The notes below the pieces were generated by a model. The model saw only the letters and a program-made list of their open reading frames with translations. It was not told where the DNA came from and made no database searches. A DNA stretch of 64,000 bases from Pseudorhodobacter turbinis (lineage in GTDB: Bacteria; Pseudomonadota; Alphaproteobacteria; Rhodobacterales; Rhodobacteraceae), in NCBI RefSeq assembly GCF_005234135.1, contig NZ_CP039965.1, positions 1,479,501 to 1,543,500 on the forward strand. Direction: 5' to 3'. Positions 443 to 17,237 of the stretch are shown one piece after another; the stretch's first letter is position 1, and every line of letters starts with the position of its first letter. A program made the translations under genes and the position numbers.

Positions 443-807
443 GGGTCCTCTGTCATGGCAAGGGCACAGGTGGCCTGCCGGTCGGTTGAGATGATGCGCG
501 GTGCAAGCAGTCGCGCTTGGGGGCCGGCGGCAGCAAGGGCTGCGGCCTCGGCGACGCTGCCGGTGCCATGGCTTGTTTGTGCGGCTGCACTTTGGGTCGG
601 GGTGTTTATGGCGGCCAGATCATGGGCGGGAACGGCGCGAAAGGGCAGGCCGGTTTCGGTGACAAGCTGTTGAAACGCGGCGGATTGGGCCTTGGCCGCG
701 GCGGTGGCCAGACAGTCCGGCCTATGCCCGTCTGCGGCCTGCACCAGCGCGTTGCGTAGGCTTGCGGCGCTGGCACCTGCCCTGAACCCAAATCCCGCGA
801 TGATCAT
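439..807 (-). CDS. cobE: CobE/CbiG C-terminal-like cobalamin biosynthesis protein
   Basis: 122 residues related to CobE and to the C-terminal domain of CbiG, a small protein of the aerobic cobalamin route whose exact chemistry is poorly defined. It opens [13 protein letters not shown]; the FGFRAG segment is typical of the family. The ATG at 807 overlaps the cobL stop by 4 bp (ATGA), and its own stop overlaps the cobM start in the same way, so the three genes are probably translationally coupled. An in-frame ATG at 822 lies inside cobL and is less likely. No signal peptide or membrane segment is seen. Confidence 0.87.
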
Positions 808-2003
808 AGCACCACCGCCCATTGCACGACCGGATAGCTGGCCTTCCAGCCGCGTTTGCTGCCCAAGGGCGCGGCGCGCGCCAGTTCGATCCGCAGCAAT
901 GTTCCGCCCAGGCGGGCCTGCGCAGAGGCCAGTAATGCCTCGGATTCCAGCGTGACGGCATTGGCGACCAGCCGTGTGCCTTGGGGTAATGTTGTTGTCA
1001 GATGGTCCAACATCCCATCCGACAACCCGCCACCGATAAAGACCGCATCAGGGCGGGGCAGATCGGCCAATGCCTTGGGGGCGTGACCTTCGACGATCTG
1101 CAAACGGTCGACGCCCAGCCGGTCGGCATTGCGGCGGATGGTGGCGGCACGGTCGGCACGCGGCTCTATCGCCACGGCTTGGGTCGTTGGATGTGTCAAA
1201 AGCCATTCAACCGCGATAGAGCCGGACCCGCCGCCGATATCCCACAGCCGCAGCCCCGCACGCGGTTCCAGCACAGAGAGGGTCAGCGCGCGGATCGGGC
1301 GTTTGGTGATCTGGCCGTCGGTCTCAAAAAAGCTGTCGTCGATGCCGCTGCTGCGAGGCAGGGCGGGGCCGTTGCCTGCAACCTCTAGCGCGACACAAAG
1401 CGGGTGTGCGAAATCACGGTTCGGTAGGGCCTGCGCGGGCGCATTCGTGATCCGTTGCCTTGGACCGCCAAGGGATTCCATCACCGTCATGCGGGTTTCG
1501 CCAAACCCTTGGGCGCAAAGCCATGCGGCTAGCGCGTGCGGCGCGTGGCCATCCCTTAACAGCACAATCGCACGCGCGCCGCTTGCCAGATGCGGGCGCA
1601 GGCGCGCCAGCGGGGCGGCGTGCAAGCCCAAGCATAGCGTTTCCTCCAACCGCCAGCCAAGTTGTGCAGCGGCAAGGGAAAAGGTCGAGGGGGTAGGAAA
1701 TGCGCGCCATTCGCGGCGGTCAAGATGGGCGGCGATGACGCTGCCCGCACCAAAACAAAACGGATCACCCGAGGCCAGCACAACCACCCGCTGCCCGCGC
1801 AAAGCCAGCAGCAACGGCAGCCCATCCGCAAAAGGCACCGGCCATTCCACCTGTTTGGCCAAGGTTTCGCCCAATAATGCCAGATGGCGGGGTGGGCCCA
1901 TCACAACTTTGGCCTGCGTCAGCGCATCACGGCTTGCGGGGGACAGCCCCTCCGGTCCATCTTCGCCAAGTCCGATGATTGTCAGCCAAGGGGTTTCAAC
2001 CAT
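804..2003 (-). CDS. cobL: Precorrin-6Y C5,15-methyltransferase (decarboxylating), CbiE-CbiT fusion
   Basis: 399-residue bifunctional enzyme that methylates precorrin-6B at C5 and C15 and decarboxylates it to precorrin-8X. The N-terminal half is a tetrapyrrole methylase domain (IIGLGEDGPEGLS near residue 10; LASGDPFCFG near residue 75). The C-terminal half is a CbiT-type domain with the SAM loop LWDIGGGSGSIAVEW. The length fits the fused CobL family. ATG 2003 matches the family N-terminus (MVETPWLTIIGLG) and has an AAGG motif about 10 nt upstream. Its start codon overlaps the divergent cobK start by 2 bp, so its promoter must lie inside cobK. Confidence 0.96.
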   Translation of the reverse strand: MVETPWLTIIGLGEDGPEGLSPASRDALTQAKVVMGPPRHLALLGETLAKQVEWPVPFADGLPLLLALRGQRVVVLASGDPFCFGAGSVIAAHLDRREWRAFPTPSTFSLAAAQLGWRLEETLCLGLHAAPLARLRPHLASGARAIVLLRDGHAPHALAAWLCAQGFGETRMTVMESLGGPRQRITNAPAQALPNRDFAHPLCVALEVAGNGPALPRSSGIDDSFFETDGQITKRPIRALTLSVLEPRAGLRLWDIGGGSGSIAVEWLLTHPTTQAVAIEPRADRAATIRRNADRLGVDRLQIVEGHAPKALADLPRPDAVFIGGGLSDGMLDHLTTTLPQGTRLVANAVTLESEALLASAQARLGGTLLRIELARAAPLGSKRGWKASYPVVQWAVVL

Positions 2004-2757
2004 GCCGCTCAACCTTCTGATCCTCGGCGGCACGACTGAGGCCGCCGCCCTGTGTCGCCGTATTGCCGCGCTGGGCCTGCCCGCCACCGTCAGCCTTGCG
2101 GGGCGGGTGGCAGCCCCCGCACCCTTGGCCTTGCCGCAGCGGGTTGGCGGTTTCGGGGGGGCAAAGGGGTTGGCAGAGTATATCCGCACCCACCGCATCA
2201 CCCACCTGATCGACGCCACCCATCCTTTTGCCGCCAATATCAGCGCAAATGCGGTCGAGGCAAGTGCCGTGACCCGGATCCCGCTGGTCGCCCTGACCCG
2301 CCCCGCTTGGCAACCGCAGCCGCAAGATAATTGGCAGGTGGTGCCCGATATGCCCGCCGCTGTCGCCGCGCTGGACCGCCTGTCTGCGCGGGTGTTTCTG
2401 GCCGTCGGGCGTATGCATCTGGCGGATTTCGCCGCCCATCCGCAGCATTTCTACCTGTTGCGCCTGATTGATCCGCCGCAAACGCCCTTGCCGTTCCCGC
2501 ATCATCACGCCCTGATTTCGCGCGGCCCCTTTACCGAGGCTGCGGATATGGCCTTGCTGACCGATCACCGTATTGACCTGATCGTGTCGAAAAATTCGGG
2601 CGGCAGCGGGGCCATTGCCAAGATCGCAGCCGCCCGTGCGCTTGGCCTGCCGGTTTTGATGATCGATCGGCCTGCCATTCCCCCGCGAGCGGAGGTAAGC
2701 TCTGTCGATGATGTGCTGGCGTGGTTGGCTCATTTCGGGATCGACCTTGGCGTGTAG
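2002..2757 (+). CDS. cobK: Precorrin-6A reductase
   Basis: 251-residue NADPH-dependent reductase converting precorrin-6A to precorrin-6B (6Y). The N-terminal dinucleotide motif LILGGTTEAAALCRR and the DATHPFA motif (about residue 74) are diagnostic of CobK/CbiJ. It is the only cob gene on this strand in the left block. Its ATG (2002) has AAGGGG 8 nt upstream and overlaps the cobL start, while its last 28 bp overlap the 3' end of cobJ. The reading frame stays open far upstream, but that part is antisense to cobL and the conserved protein begins here. Confidence 0.96.
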   Translation: MPLNLLILGGTTEAAALCRRIAALGLPATVSLAGRVAAPAPLALPQRVGGFGGAKGLAEYIRTHRITHLIDATHPFAANISANAVEASAVTRIPLVALTRPAWQPQPQDNWQVVPDMPAAVAALDRLSARVFLAVGRMHLADFAAHPQHFYLLRLIDPPQTPLPFPHHHALISRGPFTEAADMALLTDHRIDLIVSKNSGGSGAIAKIAAARALGLPVLMIDRPAIPPRAEVSSVDDVLAWLAHFGIDLGV

Positions 2758-3482
2758 ACAAAGGGCACGCCGTCGCGCGCAATCATCCGTGTGCGCGATG
2801 AACCCACGATCACCATGGTGCGCATATCGGCCATCTCTGGGCGCGCCTCGGGCAGGGGGACCACGGTCAACACCTCTTCGGAGGTAGAGACGGCGCGGGC
2901 AAAGATCACCGGCCGGGCATCATTGCAGGCCTGTTGCAACAGCTCCAGCGTGCGGGCAAACCCCTCGGGACGGCTGGCCGAACGCGGGTTGTAAAAGGCC
3001 ATGGCGAAATCCGCCCCGACCGCAAGGCGCAAGCGTTGCTCTATCACTGCCCAGGGTTTGAGGTTGTCGCTCAGGTTGATCGTGCAAAAATCATGCCCCA
3101 AGGGCGCGCCAGCCCGTGCCGCCGCCGCAAGCATCGCCGTGATGCCGGGCAACACGCGGATATCCAGCGCGCGCCATTGCGGATCACCGGCCTCGACAGC
3201 CTCAAAAATAGCCGAGGCCATGGCGAAGACCCCCGGATCGCCCGAGCTGACCACAACCACCCGCGCCCCCCCGGCCGCAAGGGCAAGGGCGTGGCGGGCG
3301 CGGTCCATCTCGACGCGGTTGTCGGTGGGGTGCAGGGTCAGGCCCGGTCGCGGTGCAATCCGCGCGACATAGGGGATATAGCCGATGACATCACTGGCCT
3401 CGGCCAAGGCTTGGGTGACCTCGGGCGTGACCATCGCATCCGATCCGGGCCCGAGGCCCGCAATAACCAACCAGCCCGTCAT
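2730..3482 (-). CDS. cobJ: Precorrin-3B C17-methyltransferase
   Basis: 250-residue tetrapyrrole methylase that methylates C17 of precorrin-3B and drives ring contraction. It has the N-terminal glycine loop (VIAGLGPGSDAMVTPE), the VVSSGDPGVFAMA motif near residue 75, and the IRVLPGITA segment. ATG 3482 overlaps the cobI stop by 4 bp. It appears to be the last gene of the riboswitch-led operon, and its 3' end overlaps convergent cobK by 28 bp. The size matches stand-alone CobJ, with no CbiG or other fusion. Confidence 0.95.
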   Translation of the reverse strand: MTGWLVIAGLGPGSDAMVTPEVTQALAEASDVIGYIPYVARIAPRPGLTLHPTDNRVEMDRARHALALAAGGARVVVVSSGDPGVFAMASAIFEAVEAGDPQWRALDIRVLPGITAMLAAAARAGAPLGHDFCTINLSDNLKPWAVIEQRLRLAVGADFAMAFYNPRSASRPEGFARTLELLQQACNDARPVIFARAVSTSEEVLTVVPLPEARPEMADMRTMVIVGSSRTRMIARDGVPFVYTPRSIPK

Positions 3483-4207
3483 GGTCGCCGCCCCTGACCA
3501 TGGACAAGGATGATCGAGAAATAGGGCGTGATGCGTGCGGTTGCCTCGCGCAGGGGGGTGACGCGCTGTTCCTCCATGCTGGCGAATTCCACCAGCCATG
3601 CAGCATCATAACGTCCCGAGGTTTTCAGCGCCTCTACCACCTTGTCGATGTTGCGCCCGATTTTCATCACCACGATGGCATCTGCACCCGACATGCCACG
3701 GATCAGGTCTTCCATGGGTAGGGTGCCCGCCAGCACGGTCAGGATATCATCGCCCCAAGTGATCGGCAGGCCCGTCGCGGTCCAGGCCGCCGACATGCCG
3801 GTGATCGCGGGGACGACCTCAACCCGATTGCTGTCCTTCAACCGTTCATAAAGATGCATGAAAGAGCCGTAGAAAAACGGGTCCCCTTCGGACAGCACCA
3901 CGACATCCTCACCGGTCGCGGCGAGGGCGCGCAGATGGGCGGTGCACTCCTCATAGAATGCGGAAAGCGTGGCGTTATAGGCCGGATCGTCCAGCGGGAT
4001 CTCGGTTGTGACCGGATATTCCATCGCGAATTCGGTGACATCGGCGCGCAGCATGCCCTCAACGATCTTGCGCGCGCGCCCTGCACGACCGGCCTTGCGG
4101 AAAAAGGCGATATGTTTGGCATTGCGCACCAGACGGTCGGCCCGCACGCTCAGCAGATCAACCGCACCGGGGCCGAGGCCCACACCATGAATGACGCCGG
4201 GCCTCAT
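3479..4207 (-). CDS. cobI: Precorrin-2 C20-methyltransferase
   Basis: 242-residue SAM-dependent methyltransferase acting on precorrin-2 to give precorrin-3A. It shows GVGLGPGAVDLLSVRA at the N-terminus, the VVLSEGDPFFYGSFMHLYE motif near residue 90, and EVVPAITGMSAA after it, typical of CobI/CbiL. The ATG (4207) overlaps the cobH stop as ATGA, and the gene overlaps cobJ the same way downstream. The order cobH-cobI-cobJ is common in alphaproteobacteria. Confidence 0.95.
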   Translation of the reverse strand: MRPGVIHGVGLGPGAVDLLSVRADRLVRNAKHIAFFRKAGRAGRARKIVEGMLRADVTEFAMEYPVTTEIPLDDPAYNATLSAFYEECTAHLRALAATGEDVVVLSEGDPFFYGSFMHLYERLKDSNRVEVVPAITGMSAAWTATGLPITWGDDILTVLAGTLPMEDLIRGMSGADAIVVMKIGRNIDKVVEALKTSGRYDAAWLVEFASMEEQRVTPLREATARITPYFSIILVHGQGRRP

Positions 4208-4833
4208 TCGGAACGGCTCGCGAGGGCGTTGACGGCGGCCACGGTGATCGCACTGCCACCCAAACGCCCCGCAACGATGCAGCAGGGGGTGGGTTGCGCC
4301 TGCCAAAGCACCTCTTTGCTTTCGACCGCGCCGACAAAGCCGACAGGGCAGCCGATGATCGCGGCAGGGCGCGGGCAGGCGGGGTCTTCAAACATATTGA
4401 GCAGATGGAACAACGCGGTGGGGGCATTGCCGATGGCGACGACGGCCCCCGCCAGATGGGGGCGCCACAGCTCCAATGCGGCGGCGGATCTGGTGGTGCC
4501 CATCTTGGCGGCAAGGGCGGGTGTGGCGGGGTCATGCAGGGTGCAGATCACAGCGTTCTCGGCGGGCAGGCGCGCGCGGGTGATGCCCTCGCTGACCATA
4601 CGCGCATCGCATAAGATCGGCGCGCCGTTTGCCAAAGCCTTGCGCGCGGCGGCGGAAAACCCGGATGAAAAGCAGATATGCGCCGCCAGATCGACCATCC
4701 CGGCGGCATGGATCATGCGCACCGCGACCTGTTCATCATCCGCATCAAAACGTGCAAGATCGGCCTCGGCCCGTATCATTGCAAAGGATTGCCGGTAAAT
4801 CGCGGCACCGTCGGTTTCATATTTATAGGGCAT
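4204..4833 (-). CDS. cobH: Precorrin-8X methylmutase
   Basis: 209-residue enzyme that moves the C11 methyl group of precorrin-8X to C12, giving hydrogenobyrinate. Family segments seen are RMIHAAGMVDLA with the catalytic-type histidine near residue 43, PILCDARMVSEGI, and IGCPVGFVGAVESKE. ATG 4833 starts MPYKYETDGAAIY, the usual CobH opening. It overlaps the end of cobG by 11 bp and cobI by 4 bp. The length is normal. Confidence 0.96.
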   Translation of the reverse strand: MPYKYETDGAAIYRQSFAMIRAEADLARFDADDEQVAVRMIHAAGMVDLAAHICFSSGFSAAARKALANGAPILCDARMVSEGITRARLPAENAVICTLHDPATPALAAKMGTTRSAAALELWRPHLAGAVVAIGNAPTALFHLLNMFEDPACPRPAAIIGCPVGFVGAVESKEVLWQAQPTPCCIVAGRLGGSAITVAAVNALASRSE

Positions 4834-5971
4834 TCTGGGGTCCGAAGATGAGAGGAAGTTGATCTGGCGCAAGGCCATATTGTGAAGGGGGGGCACCAAC
4901 CGTGCCATCCCGGATAAGGTCAAAGCGGCCATCCCGCCCGACCAGGGTGAAATCGGCAGGGCGTTGGAGCGCACAGCCCTTGGCACAGCCCGAAACATGA
5001 AGTGTTTTCCCCGCAGGCAACAATGGCGCAAGCGCGCGGGCGGTTGTGCGGGTTTGAACGGTGGCTTGTGGGCAGGCGGGTGCGCCTGTGCAGCCGTGGA
5101 TCGCCGCCAGCCCCGTACCGGGCGACAGGATAAGGTCGGGATGTGTCAAGCCTGTCAGATCGGCCTTGCGCAGCACAAGCAGCCGGAAGGGGGTAACCCG
5201 TATGGGGTGGCTTGTGGCACGTGCGATCTGGCGCAGGGCGGCGGCGGGAAACAGGCCAAAGCCCGCCCCGACCGCGCCCGATCCGGCCTGCATCTGGGCG
5301 GCGGTTGGCGGTGGCGGGATGTTCGCCCATGCGGGGGGCAAAACGGCCCCTGCGGCCAGATGACGGCGCATCCGCCCTCGCCCGTCAGGGCCGACCCCGC
5401 CAGTCTCTTGGAACCACCGCGCCAGATCAACACAGGCCTGTACCGCAGCGTTCGCATCCGTGACCCTTCGTCCCGCCGCTGCCCCGTCCGCCCGCACGAT
5501 CAGCGCGTCCTTGGTGCCCTCCACCCTTATGTCGCCGCTGGTGGTGGCCAGATGCCGCATCGCGCCTGTATCGATAACAAAACCGAATTTCGCGGGCAGG
5601 GGCGGCAGATCCATCAGGGTTTTGGGCAAAGTGTGGGCGATATCCTCGGCCACGCTATCCTCGCGGTGGGGGGAAAGGATAAGGTTGCTGCGGGCCTCCA
5701 GCTCGGCCGAGGCGGCGATCAGGCCCAGCCCGTCAAGTGCGGCCAAAAGCGTGGCAAAGCGGGCCTCGGCCACGCCCCGGATTTGCAGATTGGCGCGTGA
5801 GGTCGCCTCTATCACGCCGGTGCCGTGATCTTCGGCCAGATCGGCCAAAGCGGCCAGTTGCGCGGGCGAGACCTGCGACAGCGGCGGGCGCACCCGCACC
5901 ACCAAGCCGTCACCTGCCATCATCGGGCGATAGCTGCCGGGGCACCAGCCTTGGATAATCGGGTCAACCAT
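4823..5971 (-). CDS. cobG: Precorrin-3B synthase (Fe-S monooxygenase of the aerobic pathway)
   Basis: 382-residue nitrite/sulfite reductase-fold protein that hydroxylates precorrin-3A at C20 using O2, the step that marks the aerobic cobalamin route. Two ferredoxin-like half domains are present. Cluster-binding cysteines appear near the C-terminus as GCTGAPACPQ and VSGCAKGCA. ATG 5971 overlaps the cobN stop by 8 bp. Some relatives (R. capsulatus) use the unrelated CobZ instead; this genome uses CobG. Related sulfite-reductase-like proteins exist, but the cob context settles the call. Confidence 0.94.
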   Translation of the reverse strand: MVDPIIQGWCPGSYRPMMAGDGLVVRVRPPLSQVSPAQLAALADLAEDHGTGVIEATSRANLQIRGVAEARFATLLAALDGLGLIAASAELEARSNLILSPHREDSVAEDIAHTLPKTLMDLPPLPAKFGFVIDTGAMRHLATTSGDIRVEGTKDALIVRADGAAAGRRVTDANAAVQACVDLARWFQETGGVGPDGRGRMRRHLAAGAVLPPAWANIPPPPTAAQMQAGSGAVGAGFGLFPAAALRQIARATSHPIRVTPFRLLVLRKADLTGLTHPDLILSPGTGLAAIHGCTGAPACPQATVQTRTTARALAPLLPAGKTLHVSGCAKGCALQRPADFTLVGRDGRFDLIRDGTVGAPPSQYGLAPDQLPLIFGPQNAL

Positions 5972-8900
5972 CGGCCATCCCCGCCAGAATGGAGTTGCGG
6001 CGCGACTGCCATAGCCCGGCCTTTTGCAGCGCCGCAAATCGGGCGCGCAGGGCGGCAAGGGCTTGTGGGTTTTCTGCCTGCAAAAAGCCAGTGACATCGG
6101 TATCGCCCAAGGTTGCATCATGGAACAGATCAAACAGATGGGGGCCGACCACATCGGCCAGATGCGCAAAGGCGGCCATGTTGTCCAAGGTCGCGGCAAT
6201 CTCGGCGGCACCGCGAAACCCGTGGCGGTGCATGCCCGCGATCCATGCCGGATTGGCAGCGCGGGCCTGAACCACGCGGGCGATTTCCTCGGGCAGGCTG
6301 CGGGCGCGGGGGCGGGCGGGATCGGTGTTGTCCAGATGCCAAAGGGCGGCTTGTCCGCCGGTGATTGCCTTGGCGGCGGCAAAGCCTGCCTCATGGGCGG
6401 CATAATCCACGGCCAGCAGCAGGTCGGTTTCGGGCAAATCCTGCAAGTGGACAAAGCTGTCTGCCGCCGCGACCCGTTGGGCGATGCCGGCCTCATCACG
6501 CACTGTTTTATCGCCATCAAGCGCCCAGGCACTGGCCGCAAGCCATGCCTGCCCTGCCGCGGCGCGGCCCTCGGCGCTGTAATCGGTCAGGCTGTTGCCC
6601 ATGCCCAAACCGTAGCTGCCGGGCATCGGGCCATAGACCCGCGCGCCCGCATCCGTGCCTGCATAGGGGTTCCAGTCGGGCGCCTCATCGCGGGCGGCAA
6701 GCGCCCGAACGGCACTTGTGAAAAGCGCGGACAGATTGGGGAACACATCGCGAAACAGCCCCGAGACGCGCAGGGTCACATCAAGCCGCGGGCGGTTCAT
6801 CTCGGCCAAGGGCAGCACCTCGATGCCGGAAACCCGTTCGCTATTGGCATCCCAGACGGGCCGCACCCCCAACAGATGCAGGGCCATGGCGAATTCCTCT
6901 CCGGCTGTGCGCATGGTGGCAGAGCCCCAAAGATCGACGATCAACCCGCGTGGATAATCACCATGATCTTGCAGGTGGCGGCGGACCAGCTCCTCGGCCA
7001 GTTTGACGCCTTGGGCATAGGCGGCGCGGCTGGGGACGGCGCGGGGATCGGTGGTATAAAGGTTGCGCCCCGTGGGCAAAACATCCCCACGCCCACGGTA
7101 AGGGGAGCCGGACGGCCCCGCCGGAATACGCCGCCCCGCCACCGCATCCAGCAAGGCTTGGCGTTCGGCCTGCGCGGCGCTTGCGCCATCAAAGGCGGTT
7201 TGACTGGCGGGCGCGCGGCCCCAGATATGCAGCCCGTCGCCAAAGAGGCTGTCTTTGACATCGCAGACAAAGCTGTCGATACGGGTGATCGCCTCAGCCA
7301 ATGAGGTCGCAGCGCTAAGGCCCAGATCGGCCTCTACGCCCAAGGCCTGTGCCTCGGCGCGGATGTCGCCTTGCAAGCGGTCACGACGGCGCGGGTCAAG
7401 CCCGTCGGCATTGGAAAACTCATCCAGCAGGGATTCCAGCCGCGAAAGCCGCTGTGGCGCGCCCGATTGGCGCAGAGGCGGCGGGATATGGCCCAAGGTC
7501 ACAGCCCCGATGCGCCGCTTGGCCTGTGCCGCCTCACCGGGGTCATTGACGATAAAGGGATAGATGACGGGCATTGCGCCCACCAAGGCCTCGGGCCAGC
7601 AGGCATCCGATAGGGCGACCGATTTGCCCGGCAACCATTCCAGCGTGCCATGCGCGCCGATATGGATCATCACATCCGCCTGTTGCCGCAGCCACAGATA
7701 GAAGGCGACATAGCCATGGCGCGGCGTGCGCATCAGGTCATGATACTCGACATCGCGCAGATCGGGGGAGCCGCGTTCAGGCTGTAGAGCGATCAGCGCG
7801 CCGCCCCGCCGCGTGACGGCAAAATGAAACGCACCGTCATGGCAGGCGGGATCAGTTTCGGGCGCACCCCAGACGGCGTTTAGGTCGTCCTGTAGCTCTT
7901 GGGGCAGGGATGACAGGGCCGCGCGGTATTCGGCCAGCGGCCATGCCTCAGACGGTGCAGAGAGTGCATCTGAAAGGGGGCGGGCATCGGGCGATACGCT
8001 GTGGCCCGCCGTCGCCAGATCCGCCAAGATCGCCTCGGCAGAGGCCAGCGCATCCAACCCCACGGCATGGGCCATATTCCAGTCCTTGCCCGGATAGGTG
8101 GATAGGATCAAGGCAGGCCTGCGGTCAGCGGCGGGGCGGGCGGCAAGGTTAGTCCAGCCCGCGACCTTTGCCACAATCGCGGCGATCCGATCGGCCTCGG
8201 GGCGATGCGCGTGGCGAGAGAATTGCAGATCGGGGTCGCGGGTGTCAGGGTCTTTGAAGGAGGCGACGCCTGCAAACAACCGCCCGTCCACCTCTGGCAA
8301 CACAACATGCATCGCAAGATCGGCAGGCGACAGACCGCGTGCCGATTCCGCCCAAGCGCTGTGCGTAGCGGTTGAAAGCGCGACCTGAAAAACCGGTACT
8401 TCAGCTAAATCCAGCGGCGACACCCCATTCGCGCCCTTGCCGCTAAAAGAGGTGGCGTTGATGATCGCGACCGGCCCAAGAAAGGCCACTTGGCGGGACA
8501 GCCAGCGTGCAGCTTCGGGCGCTTTGAGCGAGGGCGCGAACAGTCCCAATACGGTAAAGCCCGCGTCCCGCAACGCCTGTGTCAGCGCGGTCATCGGGGC
8601 CATATCGGCGGCGGCCAGCCATGTCCGGTAGAACGTCACCAAGACCAGAGGGCGGGCGGGATCGCGCATCAGTGGGCAACAGGCGCCATGTTCCGGCAAC
8701 CACGCGCCGACTTGCGGCAGCACCTTTGCGCCGACCACAGGGCCGGTATAAAGCCCCGCGGCAAGTGCCAATTGCGCCAGTGCTGCCTGTGCCGCGATTT
8801 CCCCGCCGGTATCGCAAAGCTGTGACAGGCGGCGCAGGGTAGATTTGGGCAGGGTGGACACCTCATCCAGCCGTGGATCAGGGCGCCCGTCTGCGGGTAA

Positions 8901-9248
8901 AACCGCCAGCGCCAACCCCTTGCGGCGGGCCAGATCGGCCACGCTTTGCAACCCGTAGGGCCAATAGGGCACCCCGCCGATTAGCCGGATCAGGATGGCT
9001 TTGGCGCCCTCAAGCGTGCGCTCCACATAGGTATCGACCGAAAGAGGGTGTTTCAGCGCGGCCAGATTGGCCAAACGCAGGCTGGGCAAACGGCCCTCGC
9101 ACCCGCCACCCGCACGCCAGCCCGCCGCGAAAGCGCCAAGGTCACTGTCCGAGAACGACAGCACCACCAGATCACCCGGGCTTTGGCCCAGATCGGTGGG
9201 GGTGTCGGCCTCGTCCAACCCGTGGCTTTCGCGAAAGACAACGTGCAT
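5964..9248 (-). CDS. cobN: Cobaltochelatase subunit CobN
   Basis: 1094-residue large subunit of the ATP-dependent aerobic cobaltochelatase (CobNST), which inserts cobalt into hydrogenobyrinate a,c-diamide. Segments typical of CobN/BchH-type chelatase subunits include VLPEVDGRLFAGV, IHIGAHGTLEWLPGKS (about residue 535) and YPRGLIVDLWGSATMRTAGEE. CobS and CobT are not in the window. The protein is at the short end of the family and no internal disruption is seen. cobW lies 5 bp upstream, and the 3' end overlaps cobG by 8 bp. Confidence 0.96.
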   Translation of the reverse strand: MHVVFRESHGLDEADTPTDLGQSPGDLVVLSFSDSDLGAFAAGWRAGGGCEGRLPSLRLANLAALKHPLSVDTYVERTLEGAKAILIRLIGGVPYWPYGLQSVADLARRKGLALAVLPADGRPDPRLDEVSTLPKSTLRRLSQLCDTGGEIAAQAALAQLALAAGLYTGPVVGAKVLPQVGAWLPEHGACCPLMRDPARPLVLVTFYRTWLAAADMAPMTALTQALRDAGFTVLGLFAPSLKAPEAARWLSRQVAFLGPVAIINATSFSGKGANGVSPLDLAEVPVFQVALSTATHSAWAESARGLSPADLAMHVVLPEVDGRLFAGVASFKDPDTRDPDLQFSRHAHRPEADRIAAIVAKVAGWTNLAARPAADRRPALILSTYPGKDWNMAHAVGLDALASAEAILADLATAGHSVSPDARPLSDALSAPSEAWPLAEYRAALSSLPQELQDDLNAVWGAPETDPACHDGAFHFAVTRRGGALIALQPERGSPDLRDVEYHDLMRTPRHGYVAFYLWLRQQADVMIHIGAHGTLEWLPGKSVALSDACWPEALVGAMPVIYPFIVNDPGEAAQAKRRIGAVTLGHIPPPLRQSGAPQRLSRLESLLDEFSNADGLDPRRRDRLQGDIRAEAQALGVEADLGLSAATSLAEAITRIDSFVCDVKDSLFGDGLHIWGRAPASQTAFDGASAAQAERQALLDAVAGRRIPAGPSGSPYRGRGDVLPTGRNLYTTDPRAVPSRAAYAQGVKLAEELVRRHLQDHGDYPRGLIVDLWGSATMRTAGEEFAMALHLLGVRPVWDANSERVSGIEVLPLAEMNRPRLDVTLRVSGLFRDVFPNLSALFTSAVRALAARDEAPDWNPYAGTDAGARVYGPMPGSYGLGMGNSLTDYSAEGRAAAGQAWLAASAWALDGDKTVRDEAGIAQRVAAADSFVHLQDLPETDLLLAVDYAAHEAGFAAAKAITGGQAALWHLDNTDPARPRARSLPEEIARVVQARAANPAWIAGMHRHGFRGAAEIAATLDNMAAFAHLADVVGPHLFDLFHDATLGDTDVTGFLQAENPQALAALRARFAALQKAGLWQSRRNSILAGMADG

Positions 9249-10777: not shown

Positions 10778-10799
10778 CGCCCGGTTTCGATCAATCCCG

Positions 10800-11012
10800 T
10801 GCTGGCAGGTCTCCCGGCTTGCGGATGTCAGGGGGTGCCGGATGGCAGCCCTTGTCGGTCACCCAACCTTCCCGACCATATCGGCCAGTGGCATTCGGGT
10901 GACCTCTCCGGTCACGGTCGCGGGGGCGGCTCTGCTGACCTGATCAAACGCTTGCGCGTTCGGCCCGATTGCAAATTCCCTTTTCACCCAGCCAAGACCG
11001 GGCACCAACACG
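10800..11012 (-). ncRNA. Cobalamin riboswitch
   Basis: Read leftward, the segment carries the known landmarks of the AdoCbl riboswitch in order: GGTGCC (11006-11001), GTGAAAAGGGAA (about 10987-10976), GCCCCCGCGACCGTGA (about 10927-10912), GCCACTG (10892-10886), and the B12 box GCCGGGAGACCTGCCAGC (10818-10801). It precedes DUF1636-cobW-cobN-cobG-cobH-cobI-cobJ, so it should shut the operon down when adenosylcobalamin is plentiful. It is antisense to any cobO leader that starts far upstream. Together with its downstream platform it fills most of the 423 bp between the DUF1636 gene and cobO. Confidence 0.95.
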
Positions 11013-11013
11013 A

Positions 11014-11042
11014 GGTCAGGTCTGACCGCTTGGCCCTGCCAA
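11014..11042. promoter_or_regulatory. Two dyad repeats in the divergent cob promoter region
   Basis: GGTCAG-GT-CTGACC (11014-11027, perfect 6-bp arms) and TTGGC-CCT-GCCAA (11030-11042, perfect 5-bp arms) lie between the riboswitch 5' end and cobO. They sit where promoters for the leftward operon and for cobO must fall. They could be protein operators. No known consensus was matched. Confidence 0.4.
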
Positions 11043-11123: not shown

Positions 11124-11732
11124 ATGGAAGACACCAACAGCCGCCACACCGAAAAGATGCGCAAGATCAAAGCCGCGCGTGACCGGATGATGCAAACCAA
11201 GACCGAGGAACGCGGGCTGATCATCGTTCACACCGGCACCGGCAAGGGCAAAAGCTCTTCGGGATTCGGGATGATCATGCGCTGTATCGCCCATCAGATG
11301 CCCTGCGCCGTGGTGCAGTTCATCAAGGGGGCGCGCGCCACAGGCGAACGCGATTTCTTGCAAAAACATTTCCCCGATGCGTGCAAATTTGTCGTTTCAG
11401 GAGAAGGGTTTACTTGGGAGACCCAAGACCGCGAACGCGACATTGCCGCCGCCCGCAACGGTTGGGAACAGGCCAAGGCGCTGATCCTCGACCCCGAGGT
11501 CCAATTCGTGCTTTTGGACGAAATAAACATCGCGCTGCGCAATGATTATCTGGAGATCGACGAGGTGGTGGATTTCCTGCAAACGCAAAAGCCGCTGATG
11601 ACCCATGTTGCGCTGACGGGGCGTAATGCCAAGCCCGAATTGATCGAGGCCGCCGATCTGGTGACCGAGATGACCTTGGTCAAGCACCCCTTCCGCGACG
11701 GGATCAAGGCGCAAAAAGGGGTTGAATTCTAG
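11124..11732 (+). CDS. cobO: Cob(I)yrinic acid a,c-diamide adenosyltransferase
   Basis: 202-residue CobA/CobO-type ATP:corrinoid adenosyltransferase that attaches the upper adenosyl ligand. The P-loop variant HTGTGKGKSSSGFG (about residues 36-49) and the LLDEIN motif near residue 133 are diagnostic. The ATG has a strong AAGGAGGG site 4-5 nt upstream. It leads the rightward operon; cobQ begins 3 bp after its stop. Its promoter must lie in about 110 bp shared with the divergent riboswitch operon. Confidence 0.96.
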   Translation: MEDTNSRHTEKMRKIKAARDRMMQTKTEERGLIIVHTGTGKGKSSSGFGMIMRCIAHQMPCAVVQFIKGARATGERDFLQKHFPDACKFVVSGEGFTWETQDRERDIAAARNGWEQAKALILDPEVQFVLLDEINIALRNDYLEIDEVVDFLQTQKPLMTHVALTGRNAKPELIEAADLVTEMTLVKHPFRDGIKAQKGVEF

Positions 11733-11735
11733 GGG

Positions 11736-13181
11736 ATGGGCCGCGCGCTGATGATCCAGGGCACCGGCTCTAATGTCGGTAAGTCGATGCTGGTGGCGGG
11801 GCTGTGCCGTGCGGCGCGGTTGCGCGGGTTGACCGTGGCACCCTTCAAGCCGCAGAACATGTCGAATAATGCCGCCGTAACGGTGGATGGCGGCGAGATC
11901 GGGCGGGCGCAGGCATTGCAGGCGCAGGCCTCGGGGCTGGCGCCGGTGTCGGATATGAACCCTGTGCTGCTCAAGCCGGAGACCGAATCCGGGGCGCAGG
12001 TGATCGTGCAGGGGCGTTGGCTGACCTCGACCCGCGCGGCGGATTATGCGGCGTTGAAACCAAAGCTGATGGGCGCGGTTCTGGACAGTTTTTCCCGTCT
12101 CAAGACGCGATATGATTTGGTGATTGTCGAAGGGGCGGGCAGCCCGGCCGAGGTCAACCTGAGGCGCGATGATATTGCCAATATGGGCTTTGCCCGTGCG
12201 GCGGATGTGCCGGTGATACTGGCGGGCGATATTGATCGCGGCGGGGTGATTGCGCAGATCATCGGCACGCAAGCGGTGATTGACCCAGAAGATGCGGCAA
12301 TGGTGGCGGGGTTTCTGGTCAATAAATTCCGCGGTGATCCGCGTTTGTTTGGGGACGGCTATGCGCTGATCGGCGCGCGCACGGGCTGGCGCGGCTTTGG
12401 CGTCTGCCCGTGGTTCCCCCAAGCGTGGCGGCTACCTGCCGAGGATGCGCTGGATATCGCCGCAAGGCCCAAGGCCGAGGGGCTGCATATCGTTGCGCTG
12501 ACCTTTTCGCGGATTGCAAATTTCGATGACCTCGACCCGCTGGCACAAGAGCCGGGCGTTCGGCTGACGATGCTGCGCGCAGGAGAGGCGATTCCCGGCG
12601 ATGCCGATCTGGTGATCCTGCCCGGCAGCAAATCGACGCGCGGCGATCTGGCGTTTTTGCGCGCGCAAGGTTGGGATATCGACCTTGCCGCCCACCACCG
12701 GCGCGGCGGCCGGATCCTTGGCCTTTGCGGGGGGTATCAGATGCTTGGCCGCTCTATCGCGGACCCTGAGGGGGGCGAGGGGCCTGCGGGCACCACCGCC
12801 GGTCTGGGCTTGCTGGAGGTCGATACGGTGATGACGGGCGATAAACGTCTGACCCAAGTGCAAGGCCGCCACATCGCCAGCGATACACCGGTGCAGGGAT
12901 ATGAGATCCACATCGGGCGCAGCGAGGGCCCCGACCGCGCCCGCCCCTTTGCCCGTATCAACAACGGGGGTGAGGGCGCGATAAGTGTCGACGGGCTGGT
13001 CACGGGCAGCTATTTGCACGGGATTTTCGCGGATGATGCCTTTCGCGCGGCCTTTCTGGCCAATCTCGGCGTGTCCTCAAGCCATAGCCATAGCACGGCG
13101 GTTGAGGCCGCATTGGACAGCCTTGCCGCGCATCTGGAGGAACATCTGGATGTCTCTGGCCTGTTCGGGGTCGCGCGCTGA
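11736..13181 (+). CDS. cobQ: Cobyric acid synthase, glutamine-hydrolysing
   Basis: 481-residue amidotransferase that amidates positions b, d, e and g of adenosylcobyrinic a,c-diamide. The N-terminal dethiobiotin-synthetase-like domain has GTGSNVGKS (residues 10-18) and [11 protein letters not shown]. The C-terminal class I glutaminase domain has the nucleophile motif [11 protein letters not shown] (about residue 330) and a YEIHIG histidine motif (about residue 392). The length is normal. The stop overlaps the next gene's ATG by 1 bp (TGATG), which suggests that gene belongs to the operon. Confidence 0.96.
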
Positions 13182-14170
13182 TGGCCCCTTTGGCCGATCT
13201 TTTGCCCCGGTTGGAGCGGCTGGCAAAAGCATCGCTGCGGCTGTGGCCTGTGCCCGAAGGCGCGACCCTGCGGTTGATCAATGTGTCGGAAAACACCACA
13301 TGGCTGGTCGAGGCCCCTGATTTCCGCGCGGTCCTGCGAATCCACCGCGCCGCCTATCATTCCCGCCGCGGGATAGAGCAAGAGTTGGAGTGGTCACAGG
13401 CGTTGGCAGCCCTTGGTACCGTACTGACCCCTGCGCCGATCGCAGGGCGGGACGGGGCCTTTGTACAGCAGGGCCATGCGCCCGATCTTGACGATCCGCG
13501 CTTTATGGTGATGTTCCACTTTGCCCCCGGTGCGCAACCCGATGAGGGCAATGATCTGACCACCCCCTTTGCGTCATTGGGTGCTATTGCCGCCGCGATG
13601 CATCTGCACACGCAACAGTGGCAGCCGACCACCCCGCTGGAGCGTTTGATCTGGGATGATGAGGCGGTCTTTGGCCCGAACCCCACTTGGGGGGATTGGC
13701 GCGCCGCCCCGAATGTCACCCCCGAAATTGTCACGGTTCTGGAACAGGCCGAGGCCACCGTCCGCCGCCGCCTGAGCGCCTTTGGCAAGGGGGCGGATCG
13801 CTATGGGTTGATCCATGCAGATATGCGTCTGGCCAATCTGTTGATCGACGGCGCGACCACGCGGTTGATCGATTTCGACGATTGCGGGCTGGGCTGGCAC
13901 CTTTATGATTTCGCGGCCGGCATCAGCTTTATCGAGGATCACCCCCAGATCCCCGCTTTGCGCGCGGCTTGGTTGCAGGGCTACCGGCAGGTGCGCCCCT
14001 TATCGGCCTGCGATGAGGCCGAGATCGACACCTTCATCATGCTGCGCCGCATGGCGCTTTTGGCGTGGATCGGCAGTCATATTGAGGCGCCCGAGCCGCA
14101 AATGCTCGCCCCTGATTTTGCCGCCCGCACGCTTGTTCTGGCGCAGCGCTATCTGGCCAGCCACGGATAA
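13181..14170 (+). CDS. APH-fold small-molecule kinase coupled to cobQ
   Basis: 329-residue protein of the aminoglycoside phosphotransferase/choline-homoserine kinase fold. The catalytic loop is HADMRLANLL (His212, Asp214, Asn219) and the metal-binding motif is DFDDCG (Asp231). The nucleotide lobe is at the N-terminus. Its substrate cannot be read from sequence. The TGATG junction with cobQ suggests a job in late cobalamin synthesis or salvage. An L-threonine or aminopropanol kinase making the nucleotide-loop linker is a reasonable hypothesis, since no PduX-like gene is visible. A kinase of unrelated function carried in the operon remains possible. Confidence 0.8.
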   Translation: MAPLADLLPRLERLAKASLRLWPVPEGATLRLINVSENTTWLVEAPDFRAVLRIHRAAYHSRRGIEQELEWSQALAALGTVLTPAPIAGRDGAFVQQGHAPDLDDPRFMVMFHFAPGAQPDEGNDLTTPFASLGAIAAAMHLHTQQWQPTTPLERLIWDDEAVFGPNPTWGDWRAAPNVTPEIVTVLEQAEATVRRRLSAFGKGADRYGLIHADMRLANLLIDGATTRLIDFDDCGLGWHLYDFAAGISFIEDHPQIPALRAAWLQGYRQVRPLSACDEAEIDTFIMLRRMALLAWIGSHIEAPEPQMLAPDFAARTLVLAQRYLASHG

Positions 14171-14174
14171 GGTG

Positions 14175-14771
14175 CTATAGCCCGCCACGGGCGCGGATGG
14201 CCTCGGCGACATGATCGGCATCATCCAGCGCCATCAGGCTGACGGGCAGCATGATCCGCCAGTTTGCGCGCCGGGCGGACCGGGCGCGCCATGCGTGACC
14301 AAGCTGGGTTGTCTTCTCCATCAAAACCGGGGTGAAGCGGATGACCAAAGCCATCGCAACGGCCAGCACGCGCGGCGACAGGCCAAAGCGCGACAAAGGG
14401 GCGGCGAGGCGTTCTACAAGGGTGATCATATCCTCAAGCCGGCTGGTCATGGTGACCAGATTGGCCAGCGCCACGGCCACCAGCATCTTGCCTGCCAACG
14501 CGGCCCCTGTGACCCATTCGCCTGTCCAGCCGTGCCAGATCCCCAGTATCAGTAAAAACGGCCAAAGCGGGCGCAGCATGGCCGCTGCATGGCGGGCAAA
14601 GGCCCACCCGAAGGCAAGGTGAAGCCCCGCCACCGCAGCCATGACCGCCCCGATTAGCCAGAGGTTCTGCAACTGGAACAGCGCCACGCTTCCTACCGCC
14701 AAGGCCAGCAGCTTCGGGCCCACGGGGATGCGGTGCAGGGGGGTCTTAATCGGACAGGTCAGTGTCAGCAT
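14175..14771 (-). CDS. bioN: ECF transporter transmembrane (T) component, BioN/CbiQ family
   Basis: 198-residue integral membrane protein with about five hydrophobic segments and a cytoplasmic coupling region (HAWRARSARRANW) typical of EcfT proteins that contact the ATPase. ATG 14771 has GGGGGA 7 nt upstream. It overlaps the ATPase gene by 26 bp. Size and sequence resemble BioN of Rhodobacter biotin transporters more than cobalt CbiQ. No S component (BioY or CbiM) is beside it, so the biotin assignment is inferred. Confidence 0.75.
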   Translation of the reverse strand: MLTLTCPIKTPLHRIPVGPKLLALAVGSVALFQLQNLWLIGAVMAAVAGLHLAFGWAFARHAAAMLRPLWPFLLILGIWHGWTGEWVTGAALAGKMLVAVALANLVTMTSRLEDMITLVERLAAPLSRFGLSPRVLAVAMALVIRFTPVLMEKTTQLGHAWRARSARRANWRIMLPVSLMALDDADHVAEAIRARGGL

Positions 14772-15483
14772 CAACTTCCCCCAAACGGGTCATCTCGGTC
14801 GTGAAATCGGGCAGGATCGTGGTTGGCGGGCCATCGGCACGAATGCGCCCCTGTTCCAGCCAGATCACCCGATCATAGCGCGCCAGCGCCGCCGGATCAT
14901 GGGTGATCAGGATCAGCCGTTGCGGCAGGGCATCAAAGGTGCGCGTCAGCCGCGATTGCGTGGGCAGATCAAGGCCCGCAAAAGGTTCGTCCAGCAAAAT
15001 CGTGGCGGGCTTCATCGCCAGCAGTGACAGCAGGCACAAAAAATGCCGCTGACCTTGTGAGAGGGCTGTGACAGGGCGATCCTCCCAATGGCTGCGGCCG
15101 TGCTGCGCAAGCATGGCGCGCATCGCGGCTTTGGCGGCAGGTTTCGCCATGCCTTGCTGGTGCAGGCCAAAGGATAATTCCTCGGCCACGGTTGGGAAGA
15201 TGATTTGATGGTCGGGGTTCTGGAACAAGATCCCGAGCCGCGACAGGATCGCCTTGCGGTCGCGCGCAGGGTCCAGCCCATCGACGCGCACGGTGCCGGT
15301 GGCGGGGGCCACAAGGCCCGAAAGCAGGCGCAACAGGCTGGTTTTCCCCGAACCGTTGCGCCCGATAATGCCGATGCGTTGCTCTGTCAGCGACAGCGTC
15401 AGATCGGACAGGATCACACGACCGGCGGCGGTAAAGCCTGCGTTTTCAAGGGTCAATCCGACGGGAGGGTTTGGCGGGGGCAT
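14746..15483 (-). CDS. bioM: ECF transporter ATP-binding (A) component, BioM/CbiO family
   Basis: About 245-residue ABC ATPase with Walker A IGRNGSGKTSLLRL (about residue 38), Q-loop LFQNPDHQI, signature ALSQGQRHFL and Walker B TILLDEPFAGLD. The FQNPD Q-loop is typical of ECF ATPases. It is cotranscribed with the T component. The start is uncertain: ATG 15483 is used, while a TTG at 15543 would add 20 proline-rich residues. No substrate-binding S gene lies upstream, where a small lipoprotein sits instead. Confidence 0.8.
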   Translation of the reverse strand: MPPPNPPVGLTLENAGFTAAGRVILSDLTLSLTEQRIGIIGRNGSGKTSLLRLLSGLVAPATGTVRVDGLDPARDRKAILSRLGILFQNPDHQIIFPTVAEELSFGLHQQGMAKPAAKAAMRAMLAQHGRSHWEDRPVTALSQGQRHFLCLLSLLAMKPATILLDEPFAGLDLPTQSRLTRTFDALPQRLILITHDPAALARYDRVIWLEQGRIRADGPPTTILPDFTTEMTRLGEVDADTDLSD

Positions 15484-15569
15484 AGGCTCTATCGGCTCGG
15501 GCTGCGGTTGGGGGCTTTTACCCTGCCAGCCCGCCCGTGCCAAGCACCCACGGAAAAAGCTGCCCCGCG

Positions 15570-15959: not shown

Positions 15960-17237
15960 TTAGCCTTTGCGCGCGGCAGCGACGGAAGCCTCCAGGATAT
16001 CCATTGCCTCGGCGAAATGCTCATCAGGAATGGTGATCGGCGCGAGGAAGCGGATCACGTTGCCGTAGACACCGCAGGTCAGCAGGATCAGGTTGCGCTT
16101 CAATGCCTCCATCCGCACCCGGTTGGTGAAATCCGGATCAGGGGCATGCGTGGCCGGATCGCCAAACTCCACCGCGACCATAAAGCCGGGACCGCGAATA
16201 TCGATCACCTCGGGAGAGGTGGAGCGAATCGCCTCCAGCTTTTGGCGCAAGCGGCTGCCAAGTTCGTTGGCGCGGTCGCAAAGGCCCTCTTCCTCGATGA
16301 TGTCGAGGACGGCATTTGCCGCCGCAATCCCCAAGGGGTTGCCCGCATAGGTGCCCCCCAAGCCGCCGGGACGGGCCGCATCCATCAGGTCCGCGCGACC
16401 GGTGACCGCCGCCAAAGGCAAGCCGCCTGCCAGACCTTTGGCCATGGTGGTAATATCGGCGGCCACGTCATAGCCGTCCATCGCAAACATCGTGCCGGTG
16501 CGGGCAAAACCGGTTTGCACCTCATCGGCGATCATCACGATGCCATGCTCGTTACAAAATGCCCGCAGGCTGCGCAGCAAATCTGGCGGCGCGGGGTAAA
16601 AGCCGCCTTCGCCCTGCACAGGTTCAAAGATGATGGCGGCTACGCGGTCCGGGTCCAGATCCGATTTGAAGAGCTTGTTGAGCGAGGACATCGCATCGGC
16701 GGTCGAGATGCCGTGAATGTCTTGCGGGAAGGGCACGTGATAGACATCGGGCATCATCGCGCCAAAGCCTTTTTTGTAAGGCTCCACCTTGCCGGTCAGC
16801 GACATGCCCATGAACGTGCGGCCATGGAAGGCACCGCCAAAAGCGACGATCGCAGGGCGGCCCGTGGCAATACGCGCAACTTTAATTGCGTTCTCAACGG
16901 CTTCGGCACCGGTGGTGACAAAGATCGTCTTTTTGGGGAAATCACCGGGGACCAGTTCGTTCAGGCGTTCTGCCAGGCGGACGTAGGGCTCATAGGGCAT
17001 GACCTGATGGCAGGTGTGTGTGAAACGGCCAAGCTGCTCGGTCACGGCGGCCATCACCTTGGGGTGGCAGTGGCCGGTATTGACCACGGCGATGCCAGCG
17101 GCAAAGTCGATATAACGGGTGCCTTCAATATCCCACACTTCGGAATTGAGCGCGCGATCTGCATAGATCTGCGTCAACATACCTACACCGCGCGAGATTG
17201 CCTTATCCTTGCGCTCGGCCACTTCTGCATTCAACAT
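15960..17237 (-). CDS. gabT: 4-aminobutyrate aminotransferase
   Basis: 425-residue class III PLP aminotransferase converting GABA and 2-oxoglutarate to succinate semialdehyde and glutamate. It shows the class III pattern VTTGAEAVENAIKVAR, AFHGRTFMGMSLTGK, the PLP aspartate motif IADEVQTGFARTG and the Schiff-base lysine in TTMAKGLAGG. Length and motifs match GabT closely. It is monocistronic here, with no gabD nearby. ATG 17237 is the only reasonable start. Related omega-aminotransferases cannot be wholly excluded. Confidence 0.9.
   Translation of the reverse strand: MLNAEVAERKDKAISRGVGMLTQIYADRALNSEVWDIEGTRYIDFAAGIAVVNTGHCHPKVMAAVTEQLGRFTHTCHQVMPYEPYVRLAERLNELVPGDFPKKTIFVTTGAEAVENAIKVARIATGRPAIVAFGGAFHGRTFMGMSLTGKVEPYKKGFGAMMPDVYHVPFPQDIHGISTADAMSSLNKLFKSDLDPDRVAAIIFEPVQGEGGFYPAPPDLLRSLRAFCNEHGIVMIADEVQTGFARTGTMFAMDGYDVAADITTMAKGLAGGLPLAAVTGRADLMDAARPGGLGGTYAGNPLGIAAANAVLDIIEEEGLCDRANELGSRLRQKLEAIRSTSPEVIDIRGPGFMVAVEFGDPATHAPDPDFTNRVRMEALKRNLILLTCGVYGNVIRFLAPITIPDEHFAEAMDILEASVAAARKG

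Follow-up and report, generated by a model that had tools for sequence, protein, structure and literature searches.

The window analyzed here, a stretch of 64,000 nucleotides from Pseudorhodobacter turbinis, carries a kinase gene that overlaps the end of the cobyric acid synthase gene cobQ, which raises the question of what a kinase might contribute to cobalamin (B12) synthesis at this point. The B12 linker is (R)-aminopropanol, usually supplied by a branch in which L-threonine is converted to threonine phosphate (PduX or BluE) and then to aminopropanol phosphate (CobC). We consider it likely that the window kinase is an ATP-dependent 1-amino-2-propanol kinase, which makes aminopropanol phosphate for CobD and bypasses threonine phosphate. 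The early aerobic B12 pathway is present in the genome, with cobF, cobA, and cobB lying upstream of the window cob genes (by inspection), and the features of the locus are the following.

804..6541, strand unassigned: aerobic cob genes cobL (CbiE/CbiT), cobK, cobJ, cobI, cobH, and cobG (NCBIfam matches; the outer limits are raw ORF ends, and cobG falls short of the TIGR02435 cut-off)
5964..9248, minus strand: cobN, cobaltochelatase subunit (NF008973, 1658 bits)
10787..11024, minus strand: cobalamin riboswitch before the divergent DUF1636-cobW-cobN genes (RF00174, 98.3 bits)
11124..11732, plus strand: cobO, corrinoid adenosyltransferase, first gene of the cobO-cobQ-kinase unit (TIGR00708, PF02572)
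11736..13181, plus strand: cobQ, cobyric acid synthase (NF001989, 612 bits, cut-off 273)
13179..13183, plus strand: TGATG overlap of cobQ stop and kinase start (sequence; conserved in Pseudorhodobacter aquimaris)
13181..14170, plus strand: APH-fold kinase, proposed to be a 1-amino-2-propanol kinase feeding CobD (PF01636; PDB ID 6EF6 best by sequence and fold; tree)
13814..13837, plus strand: catalytic loop H212-A-D214-M-R-L-A-N219 (sequence and conservation; role by analogy with APH-fold kinases)
13868..13882, plus strand: I230-D-F-D-D234 motif, presumed metal-binding (sequence and conservation)

The cobO, cobQ, and kinase genes share a strand, with 3 bases between cobO and cobQ and one base common to the cobQ stop codon (TGA, 13179-13181) and the kinase start codon (ATG, 13181-13183). 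The gene downstream of the kinase is convergent, so that the apparent unit is cobO-cobQ-kinase, and the kinase is probably co-transcribed and co-translated with cobQ. The earlier note had described the kinase as fused to cobQ by a TGATG junction; the overlap is there, but these are two overlapping cistrons, for which "fused" is too strong. The junction GCGCGCTGATGG is kept in P. aquimaris, and the dN/dS between the two species (0.14-0.19 for the kinase, against 0.12 for cobQ) points to purifying selection on the kinase. The conservation of the junction, which the earlier note had proposed to check, thus extends to two species only, while elsewhere related kinases are coupled to cobD, cobO, and cobF. 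A cobQ gene lies near the kinase at one of 23 fetched relative loci (some of them short), that of P. aquimaris, and a general adjacency of the two genes was rejected.

The only cobalamin riboswitch found sits on the opposite strand, and riboswitch control of the kinase was rejected. The convergent stretch downstream (14175-15543, minus strand) contains genes for a CbiQ-type protein and an ABC ATPase, resembling an ECF transporter. The window CobQ is 67-71% identical to those of five congeners without the kinase and up to 75% identical to those of some other genera, whereas CobD (L026:9327-10235) is 77-84% identical to those of the same congeners. The lower identity of CobQ points to a possible horizontal origin of the cobO-cobQ-kinase unit. 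Two paralogues of the Lin0512 family (PF09585), of about 111 residues, lie between cobO and cobQ in congeners G001 and G003-G006 (L142-L146); the pair is absent from the window unit and also occurs at the cobQ of G057 and, in part, of G008. Since it co-occurs with BluE in G057 and G008, we rejected it as a BluE stand-in.

The kinase reading frame is open and encodes 329 residues, with APH (PF01636) as the sole Pfam domain (87.6 bits against a cut-off of 23.2). The intact HxD...N and DFD motifs read in the earlier note are confirmed by the sequence, the PF01636 match, and an alignment of 39 sequences including the window kinase, in which H212, D214, N219, D231, F232, and D234 are invariant and D233 is conserved in at least 90%. 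By analogy with APH-fold kinases, H212, D214, and N219 presumably form the catalytic loop, and the I230-D-F-D-D234 motif presumably binds metal. The NCBIfam models yield only matches far below their cut-offs (homoserine kinase, SrkA, and one other kinase model); the homoserine kinase ThrB2 (42.7 bits against a curated cut-off of 271) and SrkA (34.1 against 194) were both rejected.

The best PDB sequence match is 6EF6 (E 1.2e-80), with an amicoumacin kinase as runner-up (E 6.3e-15). The PDB title of 6EF6 is "Structure of the microcompartment-associated aminopropanol kinase", and we take it to be the structure of the (S)-1-amino-2-propanol kinase of the Mycobacterium smegmatis aminoacetone microcompartment, reportedly the subject of work by Mallette and Kimber in 2018. 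The AlphaFold2 model of the window kinase (pLDDT 93.8, pTM 0.91) also finds its best fold match in 6EF6 (TM 0.88/0.90, 42% identity), followed by the amicoumacin kinase. A W-G-x-W stretch and a G-S-H stretch of the window kinase both align with 6EF6; the former falls in a gap of the amicoumacin kinase alignment and the latter past its end. An aminoglycoside phosphotransferase was rejected, as the query TM is 0.43-0.51 for APH(3') and 0.58-0.64 for APH(9), at 11-16% identity, against 0.88 and 42% for 6EF6. With an aminopropanol kinase as the nearest solved structure, aminopropanol is the favoured substrate. The stereochemistry counts against this reading: the known homologue is named an (S)-1-amino-2-propanol kinase, and the window kinase would have to act on the (R) form for the linker.

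The relatives of the kinase are often found in a different setting. At 10 of the 23 fetched contig loci (some of them short), the kinase lies in a microcompartment-type operon with genes for a class-III aminotransferase (the phospholyase candidate), an aldehyde dehydrogenase, a BMC-domain shell protein, transporters, and a short-chain dehydrogenase, the gene families being named on one locus, L012, with L014 and L023 incomplete or near-copies. The phospholyase and shell genes of the 6EF6-family operons are absent beside the window kinase; such an operon is typical of part of the 6EF6 family, and the activity does not require it. The window kinase is 93% identical to that of P. aquimaris and 73% to a Defluviimonas microcompartment kinase, and the window and P. 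aquimaris kinases nest within the microcompartment kinases beside Defluviimonas (support 95/94, and 100/99 in a second tree omitting the long or divergent rows L121, L122, L021, L018, L019, and L015; L016, L020, L023, L111, L116, L120, and L194 are in neither tree).

Four further cob-linked kinases were found in four other genera (G316, G363, G216, and G298), with CobF, CobA/SUMT, and CbiB model matches identifying the neighbouring genes. In G316, the kinase overlaps cobD by 10 bases and directly precedes it, in the place of cobC in many relatives; G363 has the order cobB-cobA-cobF-cobO-kinase, and in both G216 and G298 the kinase comes immediately after cobF, with cobB and cobA further upstream. 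The loci of G216, G298, and G363 give 55-80% matches to cobB, cobA, cobF, cobJ, cobK, and cobL of the window genome, and none of the four genomes yielded a CobC match (E 1e-20). Their kinases group together (100/99) in a clade next to the aminotransferase-linked kinases, apart from the window pair, so that the tree requires at least two changes of the cob-linked label, each a gain or a loss, with two recruitments as the simplest reading. This kinase family is thus associated with cob genes (cobQ in two species, cobD, cobO, and cobF in two genera) in more than one lineage.

The host genome (G000; 4 contigs, completeness 99.99) encodes one CobD, without cobC beside it. No TIGR01140 match passes the cut-off of 290.55 (best 179 bits), a cut-off also narrowly missed by a congener CobC (283.3 bits), and with the congener CobC as query the genome gives no match at E 1e-20. 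The two top TIGR01140 matches were rejected as CobC: one is HisC-like and has a tyrA-like neighbour, and the other, which NCBIfam assigns to another aminotransferase model, is an aminotransferase beside a valS-like gene. As CobC was not found, threonine phosphate would be a dead end, which favours aminopropanol over threonine. Among the three substrates put forward in the earlier note, aminopropanol is thus preferred, given also the 6EF6 match, while threonine and alpha-ribazole are less likely.

The GHMP kinase model PF00288 was rejected as a BluE test: it has one match in most family genomes, its only match in the host is an IspE-like gene (IspE by inspection), and a BluE candidate scores weakly. 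We therefore used as query this BluE candidate, a GHMP-type gene directly before cobD in the cob cluster of G021 that matches PF00288 weakly. Its plasmid matches number six, four of them carrying the annotation "propanediol utilization protein"; the one whose surroundings were viewed is near bluB, cobQ, cobO, cobW, and cobN. The candidate has no match in the host genome, and the window kinase, matching PF01636 only, is no GHMP-kinase relative. All 14 genomes with a clear BluE have CobC, but within a sample of 101 relatives the candidate was also not found in 28 of the 42 family genomes with CobD and CobC. The earlier argument from a missing PduX or BluE is thus right in that BluE was not found but weak alone, and we do not use it for the role of the kinase.

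A microcompartment phospholyase was not found in the host or in P. aquimaris (G002), in a search that covered the microcompartment type and did not list G010, whose kinase adjoins another type of aminotransferase. A window aminotransferase (15960-17237) matches GABA transaminase and was rejected as phospholyase. A GABA-transaminase-like gene also adjoins the kinase at L195 (G391), 77% identical to that of the window, itself some 2 kb away from the window kinase; this may be chance.

The genus itself provides a contrast that partly controls for ancestry. Of seven Pseudorhodobacter genomes sampled (G000-G006), the two with the kinase, the host and P. aquimaris, are those in which CobC was not found, whereas the five others (G001, G003-G006) have no kinase downstream of cobQ and carry cobC directly beside cobD. 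The order in G005 is a conserved ORF of about 116 residues, cobC, and cobD; in the two kinase-bearing genomes the same ORF (no Pfam match for the host copy) is separated from cobD by about 100-150 bp, in which no cobC remnant could be detected.

The same pattern extends beyond the genus. Among the 101 relatives, in which cobD and cobQ were also searched, 51 family genomes have CobD, and CobC was not found in nine of these; the kinase (E 1e-40) is present in 6 of these 9 but in 3 of the 42 with CobC (p=3e-4; this and the following p-values assume independent genomes, an assumption that does not hold). Counting all 70 genomes with cobD and cobQ (weak CobD matches outside the family in G079, G081, G083, and G095 and the cobQ-less G038 omitted, and G029 kept despite an in-frame stop in its cobQ), the kinase occurs in 9 of 15 without a CobC match and in 3 of 55 with one (p=1.3e-5). 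The corresponding counts for "orphan" kinases are 7 of 15 and 0 of 55, omitting the G047 copy (38% identity, CobC present, a TGA within the match), which is kept in the "any kinase" count. A larger set of 395 family genomes from 351 genera has the kinase (E 1e-60) in 42, spanning 39 genera, and CobC (E 1e-20) in 294; CobC is present in 6 of the 42 with the kinase against 288 of the 353 without it (p=3e-18).

Six of the 15 genomes (G009, G029, G061, G074, G082, and G087; the last four outside the host family) have neither CobC nor the kinase despite cobD and cobQ, which implies one or more additional routes, or reliance on salvage. In G010, matches were obtained for the kinase and cobQ, but none for CobD. 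At L149 (G029), the cobQ match contains an in-frame TAA and no CobC match was obtained, possibly reflecting pathway decay. G088 (L117, L118) and G097 have two kinase copies each, and CobC was not found in either genome; one G088 copy is in a microcompartment operon and the other stands alone.

The contexts of the 42 kinases bear on an alternative in which a purely catabolic aminopropanol kinase, serving the breakdown of aminoacetone or aminopropanol through the phosphate and a phospholyase, stands behind cobQ by chance. Judged on 5-20 kb (with a short contig or a kinase near its end in G105, G146, G185, G210, and G231), 5 kinases are cob-linked, 18 stand alone with none of the tested cob genes seen nearby (a class including weak dehydrogenase matches in G175, G176, G182, G282, and G423, an aminotransferase 4 kb away in G182 (33%), and the GABA-transaminase-like neighbour in G391), 9 are of microcompartment type (G244 by a dehydrogenase alone, at a contig end), and 10 are aminotransferase-linked. 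The last two classes make up 19 of the 42, the closest relatives of the window kinase sit in such operons, and the phospholyase search covered the microcompartment type, a second aminotransferase type adjoining 10 of the 42; all this speaks for a catabolic role. Against it, CobC was found in 0 of 5 cob-linked and 0 of 18 lone cases (0 of 23), compared with 3 of 9 microcompartment and 3 of 10 aminotransferase-linked ones, so that all six exceptions are in catabolic settings. The missing microcompartment phospholyase in the host and P. aquimaris, the kinase-cobQ overlap kept in two species, and the separate clade linked to cobD, cobO, and cobF also disagree with chance placement, and we regard this alternative as unlikely. 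The absence of a CobC match from 13 of the 19 catabolic-context genomes indicates either dual use or shared lineage.

It is very unlikely that the kinase acts on another substrate, such as alpha-ribazole, cobinamide, ethanolamine, or a natural product. APH-fold kinases are diverse and the amicoumacin kinase is the next fold match, but 6EF6 is far closer in sequence, and none of these substrates predicts the absence of CobC. Most doubtful is an L-threonine kinase that replaces BluE or PduX alongside an unrecognised decarboxylase, which would fit the placement in a cob unit and the BluE result, many CobC-bearing relatives also being without a recognised threonine kinase, but which would be expected alongside CobC, whereas the window-type kinase avoids CobC and the best host TIGR01140 matches are a HisC-like gene and an aminotransferase of another model.

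The 1-amino-2-propanol kinase reading can be put as a sequence of steps. A kinase of the microcompartment aminopropanol/aminoacetone family would have been recruited into the cobO-cobQ unit, where CobQ would yield adenosylcobyric acid and the kinase would phosphorylate free 1-amino-2-propanol to aminopropanol phosphate in one step. CobD (CbiB type) would then join the two, and the kinase would replace the branch through PduX or BluE and CobC. The passages seen of PMC6249242 and PMC7242693 give adenosylcobyric acid as the CobQ product and aminopropanol phosphate as a requirement of CobD. The aminopropanol might come from aminoacetone reduction, from cobinamide hydrolysis by a CbiZ-like enzyme, or from uptake. 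The suggestion in the earlier note that an APH-fold enzyme could be a further solution for the nucleotide loop is computationally well supported by the likeness to 6EF6, the CobC pattern, and the cob linkage. We also lean towards the broader view that in Alphaproteobacteria without CobC the B12 linker is generally supplied by a third route, in which aminopropanol kinases start from free aminopropanol and not from threonine phosphate, these kinases having entered cob clusters more than once and possibly having a dual use elsewhere.

The supply of the aminopropanol linker is among the less settled parts of B12 synthesis. According to passages of PMC6249242, the identity of protein alpha in the aminopropanol-attachment system of Pseudomonas denitrificans has yet to be established; the same passages argue from a Km of 20 mM that free aminopropanol is perhaps not the true substrate. 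Among the matches listed in our literature search, no title or abstract opening proposes an aminopropanol kinase in B12 synthesis, and no B12 role for an M. smegmatis-type aminopropanol kinase was found in the portions of the literature searched. If our reading is true, the kinase would provide a molecular basis for the old proposal of free aminopropanol as precursor in aerobic B12 producers, reconciling the older picture with the newer one in a definable group of bacteria, and copies in microcompartment or aminotransferase operons may have a double role in aminopropanol breakdown and B12 synthesis. It would further account for B12 production by bacteria whose genomes lack CobC, improve annotations such as "phosphotransferase" or "Ser/Thr protein kinase RdoA", and offer a new module for engineered B12 production.

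Among known systems, the M. smegmatis (S)-1-amino-2-propanol kinase shares the fold, the catalytic motifs, and 42% identity with the window kinase, which differs in lying in a cob unit without an adjoining shell gene, dehydrogenases, or phospholyase. The threonine-phosphate decarboxylase CobC (named CobD in S. typhimurium) would have the same product as the proposed kinase, aminopropanol phosphate, but is a PLP enzyme and was not found in the host genome. The L-threonine kinases BluE and PduX would feed the same aminopropanol phosphate pool, but act one step earlier and need CobC, and the BluE candidate is of GHMP type. MM2060 of Methanosarcina mazei, reportedly a bifunctional kinase/decarboxylase, likewise represents an alternative way to the B12 linker, but its route is said to pass still through threonine phosphate, unlike that of the proposed kinase.
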